Shown here one piece after another: positions 1,392-10,687 of a DNA stretch of 64,000 nt. Under the pieces are notes generated by a model. It searched no databases, was not told where the DNA came from, and saw only the letters and a program-made list of their open reading frames with translations. Numbering within the stretch: position 1 is the first letter of the stretch; the number at the start of each line of letters is the position of its first letter. Source of the stretch: an uncultured Spirochaetota bacterium (GTDB lineage: Bacteria > Spirochaetota > UBA4802 > UBA5550); assembly GCA_937872225.1 (NCBI GenBank), contig CALMRZ010000089.1, positions 1 through 64,000 on the forward strand, read 5' to 3'. The position numbers and the translations under genes were made by a program.

Positions 1392-1919
1392 ATGGATCTG
1401 AATGAACTCATGGACAAGCAGGAAGAGCTGAAGGTTAGGATATCCGGAGAGGAGGAAGAGGAGCTCATTGCCGAGGGTTCCATAATCCAGCTGGTAAGTT
1501 TCGTTCTTGAAGACGTTGAGTACGGGGTGGACATCCTCGCCGTCCACGAGATCCTCCGGTTCCCGGAAATAACCCGCCTTCCCAATACGCCGGATTTCAT
1601 CAAGGGAGTCATCAACCTGAGGGGGAATGTCATCCCGGTGGTCGACGTGCGCAAGAGATTCGGATTCTCCCGGGCAAAGGTTACCGACCTGACCCGCATT
1701 ATAGTCATAGAGACCAACGACAAGCTGACGGGGCTGATGGTTGATAACGTCCACCAGGTCGTCCGGATTTCACGGAACAACGTTGATCCGCCTTCGGAAC
1801 TGATCGAGGGGGTATCGGAAGAATACATATGGGGCATCGGGAGATTGAAAGACCGATTGATAGTTATTCTTAACCTGTCGAATATCCTGTTCCTCGAGGA
1901 AGACGAGGAACGGGCGTGA
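1392..1919 (+). CDS. cheW: Chemotaxis coupling protein CheW
   Basis: CheW links chemoreceptors to the histidine kinase CheA at the cytoplasmic face of the receptor array. The 175-residue product has an acidic leader of about 30 residues and then one full CheW domain: 'LVSFVLEDVEYGVDILAVHEILR', the 'LPNTPDFIKGVINLRGNVIPVVDVRKRFG' core, and the C-terminal 'IWGIGRLKDRLIVILNLSNIL'. The length is usual for the family apart from the leader. It is the first gene of a cheW-cheA-cheB-cheY run and is separated from cheA by 135 bases, so it may have its own expression level. No receptor or cheR gene is in the window. The identification is secure. Confidence 0.95.
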   Translation: MDLNELMDKQEELKVRISGEEEEELIAEGSIIQLVSFVLEDVEYGVDILAVHEILRFPEITRLPNTPDFIKGVINLRGNVIPVVDVRKRFGFSRAKVTDLTRIIVIETNDKLTGLMVDNVHQVVRISRNNVDPPSELIEGVSEEYIWGIGRLKDRLIVILNLSNILFLEEDEERA

Positions 1920-2054
1920 TGGCGTGCCGCCCGGGTCATGCCTCCGGTACGGCTTTCAGGCGGGGCGAGCGTTTAACGGTGATACCATGATGGTATTCCC
2001 TGTTCCAGGCAGTGACGGACCGATGCCTGTTAATTGAAATCGTGGAGACCGATT

Positions 2055-5000
2055 ATGGCTTTCTCTCTTGGCGAATACCAGGATATTTTTCTCGAAGAGG
2101 CTGACGAGCAGCTCCAGGAGCTCAATCAGAACCTTCTGGAACTTGAGAAAAATCCGGAGAATCTGGAGATCATAAACAATATTTTCCGCGCCGCCCATTC
2201 TCTGAAAAGCTCGGCCGCCTTCGTCGGCCTTAACGAGCTCAGCGACCTGGCCCACATGATGGAGAACCTTCTCCAGGGGATCCGGGACGGCAGCATGGGC
2301 ATCACGCCTGAAATCATAGACATCATCTTCAAGTGCTTCGACGAGATACACAATGTTATCGACACCATAGCGTCCGGCGAAAAGCCGGAGCAGGACCTTC
2401 AGTGGCTCATAGACGACATCAAGGCCATCTGCGAAAAATCAACAAAGCCGAAGAAAGAAGACCGGAAAGCCGCCCGGGAGATTGTGACAGACGGCCCGCA
2501 CCAGTACGAAGTCCCCAAGACGTTGCTGGACGCCGACGCGAGGAAAAAAATCAAACACGGCCTGGACCATGGCAAGTCCTGCTGCGAGGTCACGGTGTTT
2601 ATCGATGACAAGGCCCAGATGAAGTGGGTGAAGGCCCAGCTGGTCGTCAATAACCTCGGGAAGATCGGGGAAATCGTGGCGACCTTTCCTTCCATGGAGG
2701 ACATGGGCGACGATGGGATGAACAACGTCGTCAAGATAGTCCTGCTGACGGACCAGCCCGGCGAAGACGTTCGCCGCGCGGCCAATATTGACCTAATTCA
2801 CCGTATCGACATACGCACCATACGGCTCAGTAAGAAGGACGGCAAGCTGATGCTCCAGTTCAGCGACAGCGAGACCTTCTACGGGGACCAGCTGCTGGCG
2901 GAGGGCGGCGGGAGCGCCGCGGCAGGCGCGGTCCGCGGGGAAACGGAGACCGCCGGGATCAAGGAAGAAATCGAAGATGCAGCCGAAGATGAAGAGGAAG
3001 AGGAGGAAGGCGCCGAGGCGGACCATGCCGTCAAGGGGGCCGATAAAGACGCCAAGAAAAAAGTGGCGATGCTGAAGACCGTGAAGGTCTCCATCGACAA
3101 GCTGGACCTCCTCCTGAATAACGTGGGCGAGCTGGTCATCGCTAACTCCGGTTTCTTCAAGCTCTACGAAGAGATGCGGAAGATCAGCGAGGAAAAATCG
3201 ATAATCAATGAATTCAAGAGCCGCATGGAGCAGATGTCCCGCATTGCCAAGGATCTGCAGAGCGGCATCATGAAGACCCGCATGGTTCCCATCGGCCAGG
3301 TCTTTACCCGTTTCCGCCGGCTGGTCAGGGACCTTGCCAAGGAATTCAACAAGGACGTGGAGCTCATCATCAAGGGCGAGGACACGGAGCTGGACAAAAA
3401 GGTCATCGACTCGATCGGCGAACCGCTGCTGCACCTGTTGAGGAACGCCGTGGACCACGGCATCGAGACCGCGGCTGAAAGGAAAAAGCTGGGCAAGTCC
3501 GAGACGGCCCATATCACCATGAACGCGTACCAGAGCGGCAACCAGATCTTCGTCGACGTGAGCGACGACGGCCGGGGCCTCAACCTGGAACAGATAAAGC
3601 GGAAGGCCGTGGCGATGGGCCTGGCAACCCCTGAAATGATCTCCTCCATGGACGACCAGGACATCTATAATTACATCTTCACGCCGGGCTTCTCCACGGC
3701 CGAGAAGATCACCGACATATCCGGCCGCGGCGTCGGCATGAACGTTGTGAAAGAGATCGTGAGCGAGCTTAACGGCTCGGTGTCCATTGAAACCGAGCTG
3801 GGCATGGGGACGCGCTTCGTCCTGTCTTTCCCCATAACCCTGGCGATCATTCCCGCCATCATGGTAAAGGTCCGCAACGAGATGTACGCGATACCCCTCA
3901 CCGACGTCATCGAGACGATCAAGATATCACAGTCGGACATCACGACCATAGAGGGACACGAGGTCATAAACCTCAGGGGCGAAATCCTGTCGCTGCTCCG
4001 CCTGTCCCGCTTCATCAACCTGGAAAGCGCCCTCGGGCCGGATGACAAGATGCCGGTCGTGGTGGTCGGCTTCGGCTCCCGGAAGATCGGGCTTATCGTG
4101 GACTACCTCGAGGGCAAGCTGGAGATCGTCATCAAGTCCCTCGAGCAGAATTACAAGACCGTTGAAGGCCTTGCAGGCGCGTCGATTCTCGGCGACGGCA
4201 GCATCTGCCTTATCCTCGATATCTCTTCAATGATAAACAAGGTGATCCTCGAGCAGGACAGGGTTTCAAAGTATGACCGCAGGAAGATCGCCGAGGCCGA
4301 CGTTGAAGAAGTGGAAGATGAGGATATGCCGGTGAAGGAGCCGGCGGGGAGGGCCGCGGTACGGGAAACCGCCCCGGCGGCCGGCGCGAAGGCCGGTGCC
4401 GGCGCAACGGTTTCCTCTGAAGCCAGGACCGCTGAAGCCAAAAAGCAGACCCCCGCGGAGTCGAAGACGTCCGAGCCGGCATCGAGGATCGCTCCGGAGA
4501 AAAAGCCGGATAATATCGTCCGGGTGTTCGCCGACCAGGAAGCCCCACGGCCGCAGGCAAAGGCGCCGGAACCGGACGCCAAGATTGAACAGCGGGTGCA
4601 CAAGGCCCTTGACGAGTTCAGGGAGGAGCTCCGCGAAAGCATCAAGACCACGGCGGGAACCGGTTTCCCGTCGGACCACATGGCCGATTCGATCTCGCTC
4701 ACCAGGGATGAATTGCGGGAATTCCAGCTCGTCGCCAACATAGGCGCCGCCAACGCGGCGGAGTCCCTGTCGAAAATTCTCAACAAGCAGATAGACCTTT
4801 CGATTCCCGAGGTGACGGTGATGCCGATAGAGCAGATACCGAAACATATCGGGGACATCGACAGCATATACATGGGCATCATGATGCCCATCCTCGGAGA
4901 TACCCGGGGCACGGTCCTGTTCATCTTCAAGGAAAACTCCGGGTTCGAGGTGATAGACCTGCTGTACGGTCTCGCGTCGAAAACGACCCATGAGTTCAAC

Positions 5001-5306
5001 GAGGACGGCCAGTCCGCACTGCAGGAGCTGACGAACATCGTCGGTTCCTCGGTGATCAACGTCATTGCGGAGAAATCGAACCTTGTCATTCGCGCCGGCC
5101 TGCCGACCATCGTGCATGATTACCTGCAATCGGTCATAGACTCGATACTTGTCCTTCACAACATGCTGAGCGATTACGCGGTCATCATGGATACGGCGTT
5201 CTTCTTCGAGAACGACAAGATCATCGGGAACCTGCTGCTTCTTCCTGAGGCCGATTCTCTTAAGATCATTGTTGAGCGCATGAGGACCAATGTCGGATCA
5301 AATTAA
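2055..5306 (+). CDS. cheA: Chemotaxis histidine kinase CheA with C-terminal CheC-like phosphatase domain
   Basis: A 1083-residue CheA, far longer than the usual 650-750. ATG 2055 is chosen because GGAG lies about 8 bases upstream; a TTG at 2034 is the only alternative. Order: Hpt domain (1-110) with phospho-His48 in 'AAHSLKSSAAF'; a CheY/CheB-docking-like region (about 150-265); acidic linker; dimerisation domain (about 340-410); HATPase (about 440-595) with N box 'LLRNAVDHGIE', G1 'DDGRGLN' and 'GRGVGMNVV'; CheW-like domain (about 596-735); an Ala/Pro/charged linker (740-880); then about 200 residues like CheC/CheX. The second half of that domain fits the CheC phosphatase signature [DS]-x3-E-x2-N-x22-P exactly (S987, E991, N994, P1017). 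The first copy ('LVANIGAANAAESLS') lacks the Glu. CheC enzymes remove phosphate from CheY-P, so kinase and phosphatase appear joined in one protein. It overlaps cheB by 17 bases. Confidence 0.93.
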   Translation: MAFSLGEYQDIFLEEADEQLQELNQNLLELEKNPENLEIINNIFRAAHSLKSSAAFVGLNELSDLAHMMENLLQGIRDGSMGITPEIIDIIFKCFDEIHNVIDTIASGEKPEQDLQWLIDDIKAICEKSTKPKKEDRKAAREIVTDGPHQYEVPKTLLDADARKKIKHGLDHGKSCCEVTVFIDDKAQMKWVKAQLVVNNLGKIGEIVATFPSMEDMGDDGMNNVVKIVLLTDQPGEDVRRAANIDLIHRIDIRTIRLSKKDGKLMLQFSDSETFYGDQLLAEGGGSAAAGAVRGETETAGIKEEIEDAAEDEEEEEEGAEADHAVKGADKDAKKKVAMLKTVKVSIDKLDLLLNNVGELVIANSGFFKLYEEMRKISEEKSIINEFKSRMEQMSRIAKDLQSGIMKTRMVPIGQVFTRFRRLVRDLAKEFNKDVELIIKGEDTELDKKVIDSIGEPLLHLLRNAVDHGIETAAERKKLGKSETAHITMNAYQSGNQIFVDVSDDGRGLNLEQIKRKAVAMGLATPEMISSMDDQDIYNYIFTPGFSTAEKITDISGRGVGMNVVKEIVSELNGSVSIETELGMGTRFVLSFPITLAIIPAIMVKVRNEMYAIPLTDVIETIKISQSDITTIEGHEVINLRGEILSLLRLSRFINLESALGPDDKMPVVVVGFGSRKIGLIVDYLEGKLEIVIKSLEQNYKTVEGLAGASILGDGSICLILDISSMINKVILEQDRVSKYDRRKIAEADVEEVEDEDMPVKEPAGRAAVRETAPAAGAKAGAGATVSSEARTAEAKKQTPAESKTSEPASRIAPEKKPDNIVRVFADQEAPRPQAKAPEPDAKIEQRVHKALDEFREELRESIKTTAGTGFPSDHMADSISLTRDELREFQLVANIGAANAAESLSKILNKQIDLSIPEVTVMPIEQIPKHIGDIDSIYMGIMMPILGDTRGTVLFIFKENSGFEVIDLLYGLASKTTHEFNEDGQSALQELTNIVGSSVINVIAEKSNLVIRAGLPTIVHDYLQSVIDSILVLHNMLSDYAVIMDTAFFFENDKIIGNLLLLPEADSLKIIVERMRTNVGSN

Positions 5307-6348
5307 GGTACTGGTTGTCGATGATTCAACGCTGGTGAGGAAGATCGTTACCGACAGCCTGGAAAGCGATCCTCAGATCAAGGTCATCGGGACGGCGGAC
5401 AATGGCGAAACCGCGGTCAAGCTGGTCAAGGAGCTTAACCCGGACGTCATCACCATGGACATAGAGATGCCCGTCATGGACGGGCTCACGGCCCTGCGGT
5501 CAATAATAGCGACGAACCCCAAGCCGGTCATCATGCTGAGCGTCTTCACCCAGCATGGCGCCGAAGAGACCTTCAAGGCGCTGGAATACGGAGCCGTCGA
5601 CTTCATTCCCAAGCCGTCATCGATGGTTTCCCTGACCCTCAATGACATAGGCGAACTGCTCCGCACCAAGGTGAAATCGGTCTGCCAGTCGAAGGTCGAA
5701 GGCTCCGATGCCCCCCTCAGGAAGAAAACCGTTGTAACCGTCGACAGAAAGCCGGCGGCGCCGGCCGAAATGAAGGCGGCCAGTTCGCGCGTCGTGGGTA
5801 TCGGCACCTCGACGGGGGGGCCGGCGGCGCTCATGCACGTGTTCACGAACATTCCGCCCAACTTTCCCTCGTCAATCCTGGTGGTGCAGCATATGCCGGA
5901 AGGCTTCACCAGGGCCTTCGCGGAACGCCTTGACGCCATGTCAAGCCTGAAGGTCAAGGAGGCCCAGGACATGGACCAGGTGCTGCCCGGCTGCGCCTTC
6001 GTGGCGCCGGGAAACATGCATATCGCCATCGAGGAAAAGAACAGCAAGCGCTATGTCAGGGTTTTCCAGGGTGAGAAGGTGAGCGGCCACCGTCCTTCGA
6101 TTGACGTGCTTTTCGATTCCCTGGCGGCGACTACCGGCAGGAACACGGTGGCGGTGATCATGACCGGGATGGGCAGGGACGGCGCGGACGGCATTACGAA
6201 AATAAAAGAAGCCGGAGGGAAAACGATTGCCCAGAACGAGGAGACTTCCATCGTTTACGGCATGAATCGGGTCGCCGTTGAAAAGGGCGGCATTGATGAT
6301 GTCGTCCCTTTATCCGAAATTCCAAAAAAAATTGTTGAATATATTTAA
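5290..6348 (+). CDS. cheB: Protein-glutamate methylesterase/deamidase CheB
   Basis: CheB removes methyl groups from chemoreceptor glutamates and deamidates glutamines, giving adaptation; CheA phosphorylates its receiver domain. The 352-residue protein has a receiver domain (1-120) with acidic pair D11/D12, phospho-acceptor D57 in 'VITMDIEMPVMDG' and K108 in 'FIPKPSS'. A linker of about 40 residues follows, then the esterase domain with catalytic triad S174 ('GTSTGGP'), H201 ('VVQHMPEGF') and D297 ('TGMGRDGAD'). All key residues are present and the length is normal. The start overlaps the end of cheA by 17 bases, so the two are translationally coupled. No cheR methyltransferase is in the window, although CheB activity implies one elsewhere in the genome. 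Confidence 0.96.
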   Translation: MSDQIKVLVVDDSTLVRKIVTDSLESDPQIKVIGTADNGETAVKLVKELNPDVITMDIEMPVMDGLTALRSIIATNPKPVIMLSVFTQHGAEETFKALEYGAVDFIPKPSSMVSLTLNDIGELLRTKVKSVCQSKVEGSDAPLRKKTVVTVDRKPAAPAEMKAASSRVVGIGTSTGGPAALMHVFTNIPPNFPSSILVVQHMPEGFTRAFAERLDAMSSLKVKEAQDMDQVLPGCAFVAPGNMHIAIEEKNSKRYVRVFQGEKVSGHRPSIDVLFDSLAATTGRNTVAVIMTGMGRDGADGITKIKEAGGKTIAQNEETSIVYGMNRVAVEKGGIDDVVPLSEIPKKIVEYI

Positions 6349-6530
6349 CGTAATGCTGTATTATGACTATAAATTTGTGTATTGCATGGAACGTTTAATT
6401 TTTTAGTTGCATTTTTTAAGATTCCGGTAATATTTCACCTATTATTGAAATTTTAAAAAACACTTAAAATTTGGATGTTAAGCATTAATTTTTATCGTCC
6501 GAATGACGAAACAGTAAATGGGGTAGGTGC

Positions 6531-6890
6531 ATGGCGACCATTTTGATAGTAGACGATGCGAAATTCATGAGGACCCTCGTCAAGGACGCGCTGGTTCCGG
6601 CAGGACATGAGATTATAGGTGAGGCTGAAAACGGGAACGAGGCCATTGAGCTTTATAAAAGGCTGAAGCCCAATCTGGTCACCATGGATATCACGATGCG
6701 GGAAAAGGACGGAATAGAGGCCGCTGAAGAGATACTGCGGCAGGACCCGAATGCCAGGATAATCATGGTAACGGCCCTGGGCCAGGAAAACCTCCTTACC
6801 AAAGCCATCAAACTTGGCGTCAGGGACTTCGTGGTCAAACCGTTTCCGCCCGAGAGGCTCCAGAAAGCTGCGGAGAAAGCCTTGGCTTAA
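6531..6890 (+). CDS. cheY: Single-domain response regulator CheY
   Basis: CheY carries the phosphoryl signal from CheA to the flagellar motor. The 119 residues form a single receiver domain with D8/D9, phospho-acceptor D53 ('VTMDITM'), T81 and K103 ('VVKPFPP'), all in canonical places. It follows cheB after a 182-base AT-rich gap, unlike the tight coupling of cheA-cheB. That gap holds TTGCAT (6407) and TAATAT (6428) at 15-base spacing, a weak promoter candidate. 'GGGGTAGGTGC' just before ATG 6531 is the ribosome-binding region. A terminator follows, so this is the last gene of the chemotaxis cluster. It could in principle be a general receiver protein, but its neighbours favour CheY. Confidence 0.9.
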   Translation: MATILIVDDAKFMRTLVKDALVPAGHEIIGEAENGNEAIELYKRLKPNLVTMDITMREKDGIEAAEEILRQDPNARIIMVTALGQENLLTKAIKLGVRDFVVKPFPPERLQKAAEKALA

Positions 6891-6924
6891 ATAAACTGAT
6901 TGACATATATTACGTTGGTTGTAT

Positions 6925-6955
6925 AAAAAACCCCTCCATCCAAGAGGGGTTTTTC
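6925..6955 (+). terminator. Rho-independent terminator after cheY
   Basis: An inverted repeat AAAAACCCCTC / GAGGGGTTTTT with a 9-base loop ends in a T run, 35 bases after the cheY stop. It separates the chemotaxis genes from scpA. The A run on the 5' side means it could also stop transcription from the other strand. Confidence 0.85.
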
Positions 6956-7091
6956 ATGCATACCGGCCTCCCGGAGCTGGCCGGGGACGTGCCCGATGCA
7001 TACTATTTTTTCATGAGACTTGTATCATAATTCAATTGCAACGGGGCGATGATCCAATAATGGCCCCGGCAAGGTTTTCCGGCGTTTACGT

Positions 7092-7886
7092 ATGAGCGAT
7101 ATAGAAGATAAAATTGAAGCGGAACCGGGCGAAAATCCCGAGAACAATCCGATCATCCATATTGATAACTTTGACGGGCCCCTCGACCTCCTGTGGGACC
7201 TGATCAAAAAAGCGAAGATCGATATAACCGAGATAACCATATCCCACATCACCGAGCAGTACCTGGCCTACCTGAAGCTGATGGAGAAGCTGAACGTCCG
7301 CGTGGCCACCGATTTTATCCGGATGGCGTCGGAGCTCCTGTTCTACAAGAGCTGCGCGCTGCTACCGGCCGGTCAGATCGAGGACGAGTATTTCGTGCCG
7401 CCCCTGCCCCCGGAGCTGGTGCAGAAGCTGCTGGAGTTCAAGAAGTTCCAGAACGCGTCCCGCAGGCTGATGGAGGAGTTCGAGGTCAGCGCGAACAGGT
7501 ATACCAGGGTGAACAAGGTTGAAGAAATCATCGAAATAGACGATTACGGTGAAGTGTCGCTCTTTGACCTGCTGAAGGCCTTCGCGGACGTCATCCAGTC
7601 CCGGAAGGCCGTTGACGAGAAGGAAATTGTGTTTGACGAGATACTGGTGAGCGACAGGATAGAGCATATCAAGAACATGCTTGAGAGATCGGACGTTATT
7701 CAATTTCCCGACATATTTACGGCGAAGCCGTCCCGGATGGAGATCGTGGTGACCTTTATGGCCATCCTGGAGCTGGCCCGGACGAGGATCATCAAGCTGC
7801 TTCAGCACAAGATATTCGGGACCATCCGCATCGTGAAGCATGCGGTGGCGGCGGTGCAGGCCCCTCCGGCCCCGGAAGGGGCGTAA
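7092..7886 (+). CDS. scpA: Segregation and condensation protein ScpA
   Basis: ScpA is the kleisin of the bacterial SMC-ScpAB condensin, which compacts and helps segregate the chromosome. The 264-residue product has the family's N-terminal block 'NFDGPLDLLWDLIKKAKIDI...ISHITEQYLAYL' (about residues 24-58), 'ATDFIRMASELLFYKSCALLP', and a C-terminal winged-helix region 'VVTFMAILELARTRIIKLLQ' that binds the SMC head. scpB follows after 63 bases, the standard order. An acidic, Pro-containing leader of about 22 residues precedes the domain. smc itself is not in the window. Family and role are secure. Confidence 0.94.
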   Translation: MSDIEDKIEAEPGENPENNPIIHIDNFDGPLDLLWDLIKKAKIDITEITISHITEQYLAYLKLMEKLNVRVATDFIRMASELLFYKSCALLPAGQIEDEYFVPPLPPELVQKLLEFKKFQNASRRLMEEFEVSANRYTRVNKVEEIIEIDDYGEVSLFDLLKAFADVIQSRKAVDEKEIVFDEILVSDRIEHIKNMLERSDVIQFPDIFTAKPSRMEIVVTFMAILELARTRIIKLLQHKIFGTIRIVKHAVAAVQAPPAPEGA

Positions 7887-7949
7887 AAGGATATCCGCGA
7901 TTCATACATCGCGCATTTCAATGGACCGCGTGTAACAAGGAACAGTACC

Positions 7950-8561
7950 ATGGCAAACGATATAGAAGATGATGTAGTAGAGAAGATCGACCAGGAAGCG
8001 GAGCCCGATGAGGGGCACCGGGACGACGACGAGGTCATCAAGGGTCTGCTTGAGGCTGTTCTATTTCTGAGCAACGAGCCGGTGCCGCTGTCGTTCTTCG
8101 TGAACAGTTTTTCAATCGACCAGACCCACGCGAAGATACTCCTTGACTCGCTCGTTGACGAGTACGAGGACCGGGACGGCGGCATCAAGCTCCAGGAGAT
8201 CGCCAAGGGGTACCAGTTTGTCACGAGCCCCAGGTACGGGGAGCAGCTGCGGCGGGTCATCGGCGTCAGGAAGAGGGAAGGGCTTTCCAAGGGCATGCTG
8301 GAAACCTTGGCCATCATCGCCTACAAGCAGCCCATCGTGCTGGCCGAGATCGACGAACTCAGGGGGGTGTCGTCCCGCATGATGGTGGCGAAGCTGATGG
8401 AGCGCACCCTGGTCAAGCCGGTGGGGCGGAAGGAGCTCCCGGGGCGTCCCCTGGCGTACGGCACCACCAATGAATTTTTAAAGTATTTCGGCCTCAACAA
8501 GCTTTCCGACCTGCCGAAGCTGTCGGAGATCAAGGAATTTTCGCTGAACTGGGAAGAATAG
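7950..8561 (+). CDS. scpB: Segregation and condensation protein ScpB
   Basis: ScpB is the second non-SMC subunit of the bacterial condensin and binds ScpA as a dimer of winged-helix proteins. The 203-residue product shows the first winged-helix region ('LLEAVLFLSNEPVPLSFF', about 31-48) and the conserved second block 'LSKGMLETLAIIAYKQPIVLAEIDELRGV', ending in 'GRPLAYGTTNEFLKYFGLNKLSDLP'. The first 28 residues are acidic and not conserved. AAGGAAC before ATG 7950 serves as ribosome-binding site. The next gene, pheA, starts one base after the stop codon. Confidence 0.94.
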   Translation: MANDIEDDVVEKIDQEAEPDEGHRDDDEVIKGLLEAVLFLSNEPVPLSFFVNSFSIDQTHAKILLDSLVDEYEDRDGGIKLQEIAKGYQFVTSPRYGEQLRRVIGVRKREGLSKGMLETLAIIAYKQPIVLAEIDELRGVSSRMMVAKLMERTLVKPVGRKELPGRPLAYGTTNEFLKYFGLNKLSDLPKLSEIKEFSLNWEE

Positions 8562-8562
8562 C

Positions 8563-9612
8563 ATGGCGGAGCGCGACGACATAGGCGCAATAGACCGGGA
8601 GATCATCGGGCTGATCTCGCGGAGGACCGAGCTGTACCTGCAGGAGCTGCGGAAGAGGCCCGAGGGGGACCCCTTCGTCGCCGAAGAGCGGAGCAGGCTA
8701 TTTGACCTTATCGATTCATGCAATGCCGGCCCCCTGGGCGCGGATGTCATCAAGCGCATCTACACCGATATCATGTCGGCAACCATGGCGTCCGTGGCGC
8801 CGGTCCATGTGGCCTTCCTGGGACCGGAGGGCACCTTCACCGCCATTGCCGTGAAGGAGCTCTTCGGCCAATCCATAACGCCGATGCCCCAGCGGACCAT
8901 ACAGGACGTGTTCCTCCAGGTGGAGGCGGGGGCCGCGCGGTACGGCGTGGTCCCCATAGAAAACAGCACCGAGGGAGCGGTGACCTATACCCTTGACGAG
9001 TTCATGCAGACGAGCCTGGTCATCATGGCCGAGCAGTACGTGCGCGTCACCTACAGCCTCCTGTCGCGCGGCAGCGACATGGCCGCGATAAAGAAGATCT
9101 ACACCCATCCCCAGACCCTGGGCCAGTGCAAGTCATGGATCAGGGCGAACCTGCCCTACGCGGAAATCGTCAGTGTCGATTCGACGTCACGGGCCGCCGA
9201 GATCGCCTCGCAGGAGGACGGCGCCGCGGCCATCGCCTCGGGCCTTGCCGGCGAGATATACACCCTGAACACCCTCGCGTCGATGATCGAGGACTCCCGG
9301 CTGAATTACACCAGGTTTTTCCTCATCGGCAAGAAGAGCGGCGCACCGACCGGCAGGGACAAGACCTCCCTCGTGTGCGCCGTCAAGGACCGGCCGGGGG
9401 CGCTCCTTGACCTGCTGAGGCCGTTAAGCGAGGCCGGCATCAACATGACCAGGATCGAGTCGCGCCCCGATAAAAAGAAGATGTGGGAGTATAATTTCTT
9501 CATCGATATACTCGGCCACGCCGAAGACGAGGCGGTCCGGAAGGCGCTGGACAAGGTGAAGAACGAGACGATATTTCTCAAGATACTCGGTTCATATCCG
9601 ATCGGCAGTTGA
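8563..9612 (+). CDS. pheA: Bifunctional chorismate mutase / prephenate dehydratase (P-protein)
   Basis: This enzyme converts chorismate to prephenate and then to phenylpyruvate, the phenylalanine branch of aromatic synthesis. The 349 residues divide into an AroQ-type chorismate mutase region (about 1-80, 'IDREIIGLISRRTELYLQEL'), a prephenate dehydratase domain (about 83-265; 'FLGPEGTFTAIA', 'PIENSTEGAVTYTLDEF' and the TRF-type 'YTRFFLIG'), and a C-terminal ACT domain ('DRPGALLDLLRPLSEAGINM', 'RIESRP') that normally gives feedback inhibition by phenylalanine. The start lies one base after the scpB stop, so it is co-translated with the condensin genes. tyrA for the tyrosine branch lies next, and aroB is in the same gene run. 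Confidence 0.93.
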   Translation: MAERDDIGAIDREIIGLISRRTELYLQELRKRPEGDPFVAEERSRLFDLIDSCNAGPLGADVIKRIYTDIMSATMASVAPVHVAFLGPEGTFTAIAVKELFGQSITPMPQRTIQDVFLQVEAGAARYGVVPIENSTEGAVTYTLDEFMQTSLVIMAEQYVRVTYSLLSRGSDMAAIKKIYTHPQTLGQCKSWIRANLPYAEIVSVDSTSRAAEIASQEDGAAAIASGLAGEIYTLNTLASMIEDSRLNYTRFFLIGKKSGAPTGRDKTSLVCAVKDRPGALLDLLRPLSEAGINMTRIESRPDKKKMWEYNFFIDILGHAEDEAVRKALDKVKNETIFLKILGSYPIGS

Positions 9613-9814
9613 CCCCCCCGGGGCGCGATGAATATCCCTTTGACCTCGTAGGGGGCACTAATGTAGGGGCTGCGGCAGATTTGATGAGATAGTGACGGAT
9701 CCCGCGCTCTCCTTCAAGGGAACGGGGGTGCACGGCATATAATCCGTAAAATTAAATATAACGAGTTAAGTCCCATCCTACATGCCCCCTTGAGGGGACA
9801 GGGGGGTGTCAGAT

Positions 9815-10687
9815 ATGTTTAAAAAAGTAGCCATATTCGGCCTGGGCCTGCTGGGCGGTTCGATATGCCGGGCCCTGAAGGAGCAGGACCCCGGCGTGCA
9901 CATTTCCGCGTACGGGCGGAATCTCCCGAGGATCGAGCCGGCCCTCAGGGACGGCAGCATTGACGCGGCCGGCACCTTCGACCGCGTCTCTCTCGCCGGC
10001 GTCGAGCTGGCGGTGGTGTCCACGCCCGTTGACTCCTCGATCGATATCATCAGGGGCATCCTCGGCCATGCCGAGCTGGACCCGCGGGCGATAGTTGTCG
10101 ATGTCGGCAGCGTCAAGGAAGTCATTGTCCGTGAGGTCTCGGGACTCGGGCGGTCCGCACAATTCATCGGCTGCCACCCGATTGCCGGATCCGAAAAAAC
10201 AGGATACGAATACAGCAGGGCCGATCTCTACAACGGCTCCTCGGTCATCATCACGCCCCACGGCGGCAACAGCGACGGCGATATCGCCCGGGTGGCGCGG
10301 TTCTGGGAGTCCCTCGGCGCCCGGACGACCGTGGTAACGCCGGAGGAGCATGACCGCATCGTAGCCTATACGAGCCACCTGCCGCACATGATCGCCAGCT
10401 CCCTTGTCGAGGTTTTCCACGAATTCCGCAGGGACAGCGAACCGACATCGGGCATCGGCGCATTCATTGGCAACGGCTTCAGGGACGTGACCCGCATATC
10501 CTCCGGATCGCCGGACATGTGGCGCGATATCGTACTCCAGAACCGGGGCAACATTTCCGGGGCGATTGACCGTATGATCGGGGAGCTCGATCGGCTGAAA
10601 AAGCTGATAGCCGGCGCCGGACCGGAAGGCGGTCCGGTCCATGATTATTTCGCCGACGCCAAGAAGATCAGGGACGGGTTGAAATGA
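9815..10687 (+). CDS. tyrA: Prephenate/arogenate dehydrogenase TyrA
   Basis: TyrA oxidatively decarboxylates prephenate (or arogenate) in tyrosine synthesis using NAD(P). The N-terminal Rossmann motif is 'VAIFGLGLLGGS'. Further family blocks are 'VDVGSVKE', 'GCHPIAGSEKTGYEYS' and 'YTSHLPHMIASSLV' with its conserved His. ATG 9815 is preferred because a GGGGGG run sits 8 bases upstream; a GTG at 9806 in the same frame would add three residues. The 202-base gap after pheA carries a short CCCC-ttga-GGGG inverted repeat directly before the start region. The stop overlaps the start of cmk (ATGA). Whether prephenate or arogenate is the substrate cannot be read from the sequence. Confidence 0.9.
   Translation: MFKKVAIFGLGLLGGSICRALKEQDPGVHISAYGRNLPRIEPALRDGSIDAAGTFDRVSLAGVELAVVSTPVDSSIDIIRGILGHAELDPRAIVVDVGSVKEVIVREVSGLGRSAQFIGCHPIAGSEKTGYEYSRADLYNGSSVIITPHGGNSDGDIARVARFWESLGARTTVVTPEEHDRIVAYTSHLPHMIASSLVEVFHEFRRDSEPTSGIGAFIGNGFRDVTRISSGSPDMWRDIVLQNRGNISGAIDRMIGELDRLKKLIAGAGPEGGPVHDYFADAKKIRDGLK

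Follow-up and report, generated by a model that had tools for sequence, protein, structure and literature searches.

Genomic locus and architecture of the fused CheA

The window analyzed here, a stretch of 64,000 nucleotides from a spirochaete draft genome of 4.69 Mb in 95 contigs, carries a chemotaxis operon whose cheA gene extends well beyond the usual kinase domains (Table 1). By direct reading, this gene starts at an ATG at position 2055, preceded by GGAG, and encodes a protein of 1083 aa that ends at 5306; an in-frame TTG lies upstream at 2034. Its CheA core is complete, with Hpt, P2, H-kinase_dim, HATPase_c and CheW matched in order and all above the Pfam cut-offs. Going by these profile matches, the kinase portion is a full five-domain CheA to which a C-terminal CheC-family domain is fused. 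Its operon and a tree of the P3-P5 domains place the protein beside other CheC-fused CheAs, and it may belong to the F1 class of CheA. Directly after the chemotaxis operon lie scpA, scpB and pheA-like genes (window positions 1392-10687 for the whole arrangement).

Table 1. Features of the cheA-cheC gene and its operon neighbours, with positions in the window.
Feature	Position	Strand	Evidence
cheW, same operon	1392..1919	+	PF01584 2e-38; synteny
cheA-cheC fusion gene, 1083 aa	2055..5306	+	ORF and Pfam architecture
Hpt (P1), residues 8-105	2076..2369	+	PF01627 7e-19
His48 in HSLKS, within Hpt (P1), candidate phospho-acceptor			sequence
P2, CheY/CheB-binding domain, residues 178-254	2586..2816	+	PF07194 8e-14
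Dimerisation domain (P3), residues 341-408	3075..3278	+	PF02895 3e-17
ATP-binding kinase domain (P4), residues 457-594	3423..3836	+	PF02518 1e-18
CheW-like regulatory domain (P5), residues 602-729	3858..4241	+	PF01584 8e-30
Linker rich in Ala/Glu/Pro/Lys/Arg, approximately residues 735-884 (~150)	4257..4706	+	composition; no Pfam family match
CheC domain, residues 885-1083	4707..5303	+	PF04509 3e-13; NF041093 3e-35; T. maritima CheC structures 8e-20
First half-site, degenerate: L892-x2-N895, without Glu	4728..4739	+	class copies: Glu 0/42, Asn 42/42
Intact second half-site, E991-x2-N994	5025..5036	+	Glu and Asn in 80/80 fused copies
D1022, at the alignment position of T. maritima CheC D143	5118..5120	+	Asp in 42/42 class copies vs 7/38 other fused copies
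cheB, start overlapping the end of cheA	5290..6348	+	CheB_methylest 1e-65 and Response_reg; synteny
cheY-like single receiver domain, likely (predicted) substrate	6531..6890	+	PF00072 4e-28; synteny

The C-terminal domain belongs to the CheC family

An earlier sequence-only reading of this locus had taken the last ~200 residues for a domain of the CheC/CheX type, placed behind a long linker of Ala, Pro and charged residues. The composition of the linker bears out the second point, and profile searches the first. Pfam CheC (PF04509, CL0355) scores 49.9 bits against a cut-off of 22, in two stretches, and again 49.9 bits when the domain is searched in isolation, whereas Pfam CheX reaches only 19.6 bits on the whole protein, below its cut-off of 27, and 27.6 bits on the isolated domain, just above it. 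A CheX identity was rejected on the difference between these isolated-domain scores. Residues 892-1076 also match NCBIfam NF041093 (Thermotogales CheC) at 3.1e-35, with a score of 122 bits that lies below the equivalog cut-off of 250 for this model and so indicates a member of the CheC family rather than an orthologue of the Thermotoga protein. The structures of T. maritima CheC (2f9z and 1xkr) match the domain at 8e-20 along almost its full length. An AlphaFold2 model of the domain built with 10 homologues was too poor for placing E991 and N994 (pLDDT 48, pTM 0.45); a Foldseek search with it returned CheC at the top, but at a TM score of 0.36 and an rmsd of 18, and the order of its secondary-structure elements agrees loosely with that of CheC.

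The same reading had recognized the signature [DS]-x3-E-x2-N-x22-P, and S987, E991, N994 and P1017 do fit it exactly. Shuffling produces this pattern at a rate of 0.3% for the domain and 1.9% for the whole protein, so that the motif alone is modest evidence, and it is the profile matches that are strong. The first half-site reads L892-x2-N895-x22-P918, with the proline in place, and therefore lacks the catalytic Glu, again as had been noted. The further expectation of one active site, as in CheX, holds in part: Glu and Asn occur together in the second half-site only, but the domain is of CheC type and has two half-sites, a degenerate one followed by the intact one. Two-site CheC proteins carry Glu and Asn in both half-sites, and the fused domain does not. 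Judged on its sequence, it is best called a CheC with one functional half-site, and not CheX-like.

Conservation among fused copies follows the same pattern. Of 80 aligned fused domains, none has both Glu and Asn at the first site; the domains diverge down to 17-30% identity, yet all 80 keep E-x2-N at the second, these counts being of sequences and not of independent events, as the loci overlap in kinship. Among 22 diverse copies, full invariance is confined to the columns of E991, N994, N1002 and P1017. Loss of the first Glu throughout the class together with retention of the second is what would be expected with one site under selection. Separate CheC proteins keep both sites in five of the six families sampled, the remaining one (f12) being without the second.

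Distribution in Spirochaetota

A survey of the domain across 393 spirochaete genomes, using a profile of fused domains and a single sequence as queries, found that the fusion recurs. In this sample the class of the window has 46 genomes, which belong to a single order and divide into 26 genera and 7 families; none of the genera is as large as Leptospira. The fused-type CheC domain is found in 44 of these 46 genomes, in about 41 cases within ORFs of at least 886 aa, the rest being cut by contig ends or by a frame break; the two genomes in which it was not found have completeness values of 72% and 85%. Outside the class, seven families (f9, f11, f19, f27, f28, f29 and f34) likewise encode long CheA ORFs that contain the domain, while most of the remaining genomes among the 393 gave no match to the fused domain.

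The gene order cheW-cheA(C)-cheB-cheY-scpA-scpB-pheA is common to members of the class and to one f11 genome (G049), and its first four genes appear in the same order in f34 members, which favours shared descent of the class, f11 and f34 operons. In the tree of CheA P3-P5 domains, the class (41 rows) groups together beside the f11 and f34 fusions with starred support. Because unfused CheAs are few in this tree and several of its branches are long, it does not establish a single origin of the fusion; one row labelled as unfused (L055) is identical to a fused one (L044).

In CheAs from four further families (f22, f38, f41 and f46; L089-L093, L095-L098), the C-terminus is formed by a CheC-like domain of ~140 residues that is more divergent, keeps the second E-x2-N and has lost the first site. 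Pfam gave no CheC/CheX match in either of the two such domains that were tested.

A probable tethered phosphatase and a possible link to CheD

We consider it probable that the gene product is a CheA of F1-like type to which a CheC domain with a single active site is tethered, and that this domain dephosphorylates CheY-P. The kinase part would autophosphorylate on His48 and pass the phosphate to CheY bound by P2; the CheC domain, on its flexible linker, would then reach CheY-P and insert E991 and N994 at its active site, speeding up dephosphorylation, so that one and the same array would both produce and clear CheY-P. This reading is supported by homology to CheC, by the second E-x2-N kept in every fused copy, by the class-wide loss of the first Glu, by the maintained operon order and by the absence of CheZ, which gave no match in the genome itself nor in any class genome searched. 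Counting against it are two separate CheX ORFs of 155 and 152 aa in the same genome, both with an intact E-x2-N, owing to which the fused domain is not the sole candidate phosphatase. FliY-sized ORFs (~360 aa) with a CheC match are also present in several class members. In B. subtilis, moreover, CheC is a weak phosphatase, with 6% of the activity of FliY, and its main role is CheD binding (PMC3513319), so that conserved catalytic residues are no proof that dephosphorylation is the main role of the fused domain.

This precedent leads to the most serious alternative, which we regard as rather unlikely and which is compatible with a phosphatase role: the fused CheC may serve mainly as a dock for CheD, with dephosphorylation secondary. 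CheY-P would raise the affinity for CheD and draw it off the receptors, lowering CheA activity, as in the CheC/CheD/CheY-P adaptation loop of B. subtilis, here anchored to CheA. The argument centres on D1022, an Asp that would lie at the CheD interface, judging from alignment with T. maritima CheC and from its 28-residue spacing after the catalytic Asn; its equation with D149 of B. subtilis CheC comes from this spacing rather than from an alignment with the B. subtilis protein. D149 lies at the CheD interface, and its replacement in the D149K mutant abolishes CheD binding and chemotaxis while phosphatase activity is retained (PMC3513319). The corresponding Asp is invariant in the class but absent from most fusions outside it. 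The genome holds six CheD-family genes (L126-L131), two of which (L126 and L127, on contigs C47 and C17) carry the GGAxMF motif also present in the T. maritima CheD of the CheC-CheD complex structure 2f9z. Species that have CheC conserve M101 and F102 of CheD (PMC3513319), and GGAxMF would contain this pair, a correspondence that we only infer. The two GGAxMF proteins make CheD binding by the fused domain no more than possible. On the other side, the invariance of E-x2-N is stricter than pure docking would need, and no cheD lies within the cheW-cheA(C)-cheB-cheY operon.

Both roles might be combined: the CheA-CheC of the class would then make and remove CheY-P and, at high CheY-P, also withdraw CheD from the receptors, integrating into the kinase an adaptation loop that B. 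subtilis runs with separate proteins; we put this forward tentatively, as an unlikely possibility.

It is improbable that the domain is a non-catalytic binder of CheY-P, acting as a buffer or as a scaffold of the array. Such a role would agree with the degenerate first half-site, and phosphatase activity could come from the separate CheX proteins, but all 80 fused copies retain the second-site Glu and Asn, which also belong to the few invariant columns. Finally, the draft state of the genome notwithstanding, an artefact of assembly or reading frame is ruled out by the recurrence of the same architecture in independent assemblies of the class and of other families, as is a chance resemblance to CheC by E-values of 3e-35 and 8e-20.

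Comparison with known systems

The statement in the sequence-only reading that this fusion is an undescribed type is wrong. CheC/CheX domains fused to F1 CheAs have been reported in the class Leptospirae, with a proposed dual role as kinase and phosphatase, in a survey of 14,796 GTDB R95 RefSeq genomes (Berry, Andrianova and Zhulin, 2023, PMC10782961); F1 and F8 are the main systems of Leptospirae (PMC7666581). As far as the account of these fusions in PMC10782961 goes, they are F1-type CheAs that resemble the protein described here, probably itself F1-like, in having a P2 domain and a C-terminal CheC/CheX domain, and are reported for Leptospirae only, whereas the window apparently comes from another class, probably GTDB UBA4802, a class to which other spirochaete MAGs have been assigned (PMC13248872): 46 genomes of a single order, without a genus of Leptospira size, would argue against membership of Leptospirae. 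The loss of one half-site, the Asp at the CheD interface and the synteny are features found here and not described in the CheC/CheX section of that paper. What is new is the extension of the fusion to an apparently different class, with a conserved operon and conservation at the level of residues.

Such conservation marks the published fusion as stably maintained over a broad part of the spirochaete phylum. It also makes the dual-function idea of the published account testable at single residues, as phosphatase activity would depend on E991 and N994, and offers D1022 as the residue on which binding of CheD would depend. Where one chain holds both the kinase and the phosphatase acting on what it produces, the removal of CheY-P would be coupled in location and in quantity to its production, in contrast to the separate enzymes of model organisms.

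Stand-alone CheC (T. maritima, 1xkr and 2f9z; B. subtilis) shares with the fused domain homology over its whole length, the second half-site and the Asp at the CheD interface. The fused domain differs in being joined to CheA and in having Glu and Asn in one half-site, where T. maritima CheC has them in both. Its likeness to CheX consists of a single E-x2-N site and a weak Pfam CheX match, but CheC is by far its best profile, and it comprises ~199 residues with two half-site repeats. A bifunctional kinase-phosphatase is reportedly also represented by CheA3 of Rhodobacter sphaeroides (Porter et al., 2008, cited in PMC10782961), likewise tying both activities to one chemotaxis protein. Its phosphatase region is not known to be a CheC domain.

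Additional chemotaxis loci

A second CheA of 708 aa, unfused, is encoded on another contig of the genome (C81:72000-83000, L122) with its own cheW and cheB; this locus includes two CheD-like genes without GGAxMF, and a fliG-like ORF adjoins it. Elsewhere in the sample, one genome (G047) has two CheA-CheC fusions (L035 and L036), in both cases with a CheD gene and a CheX gene following.
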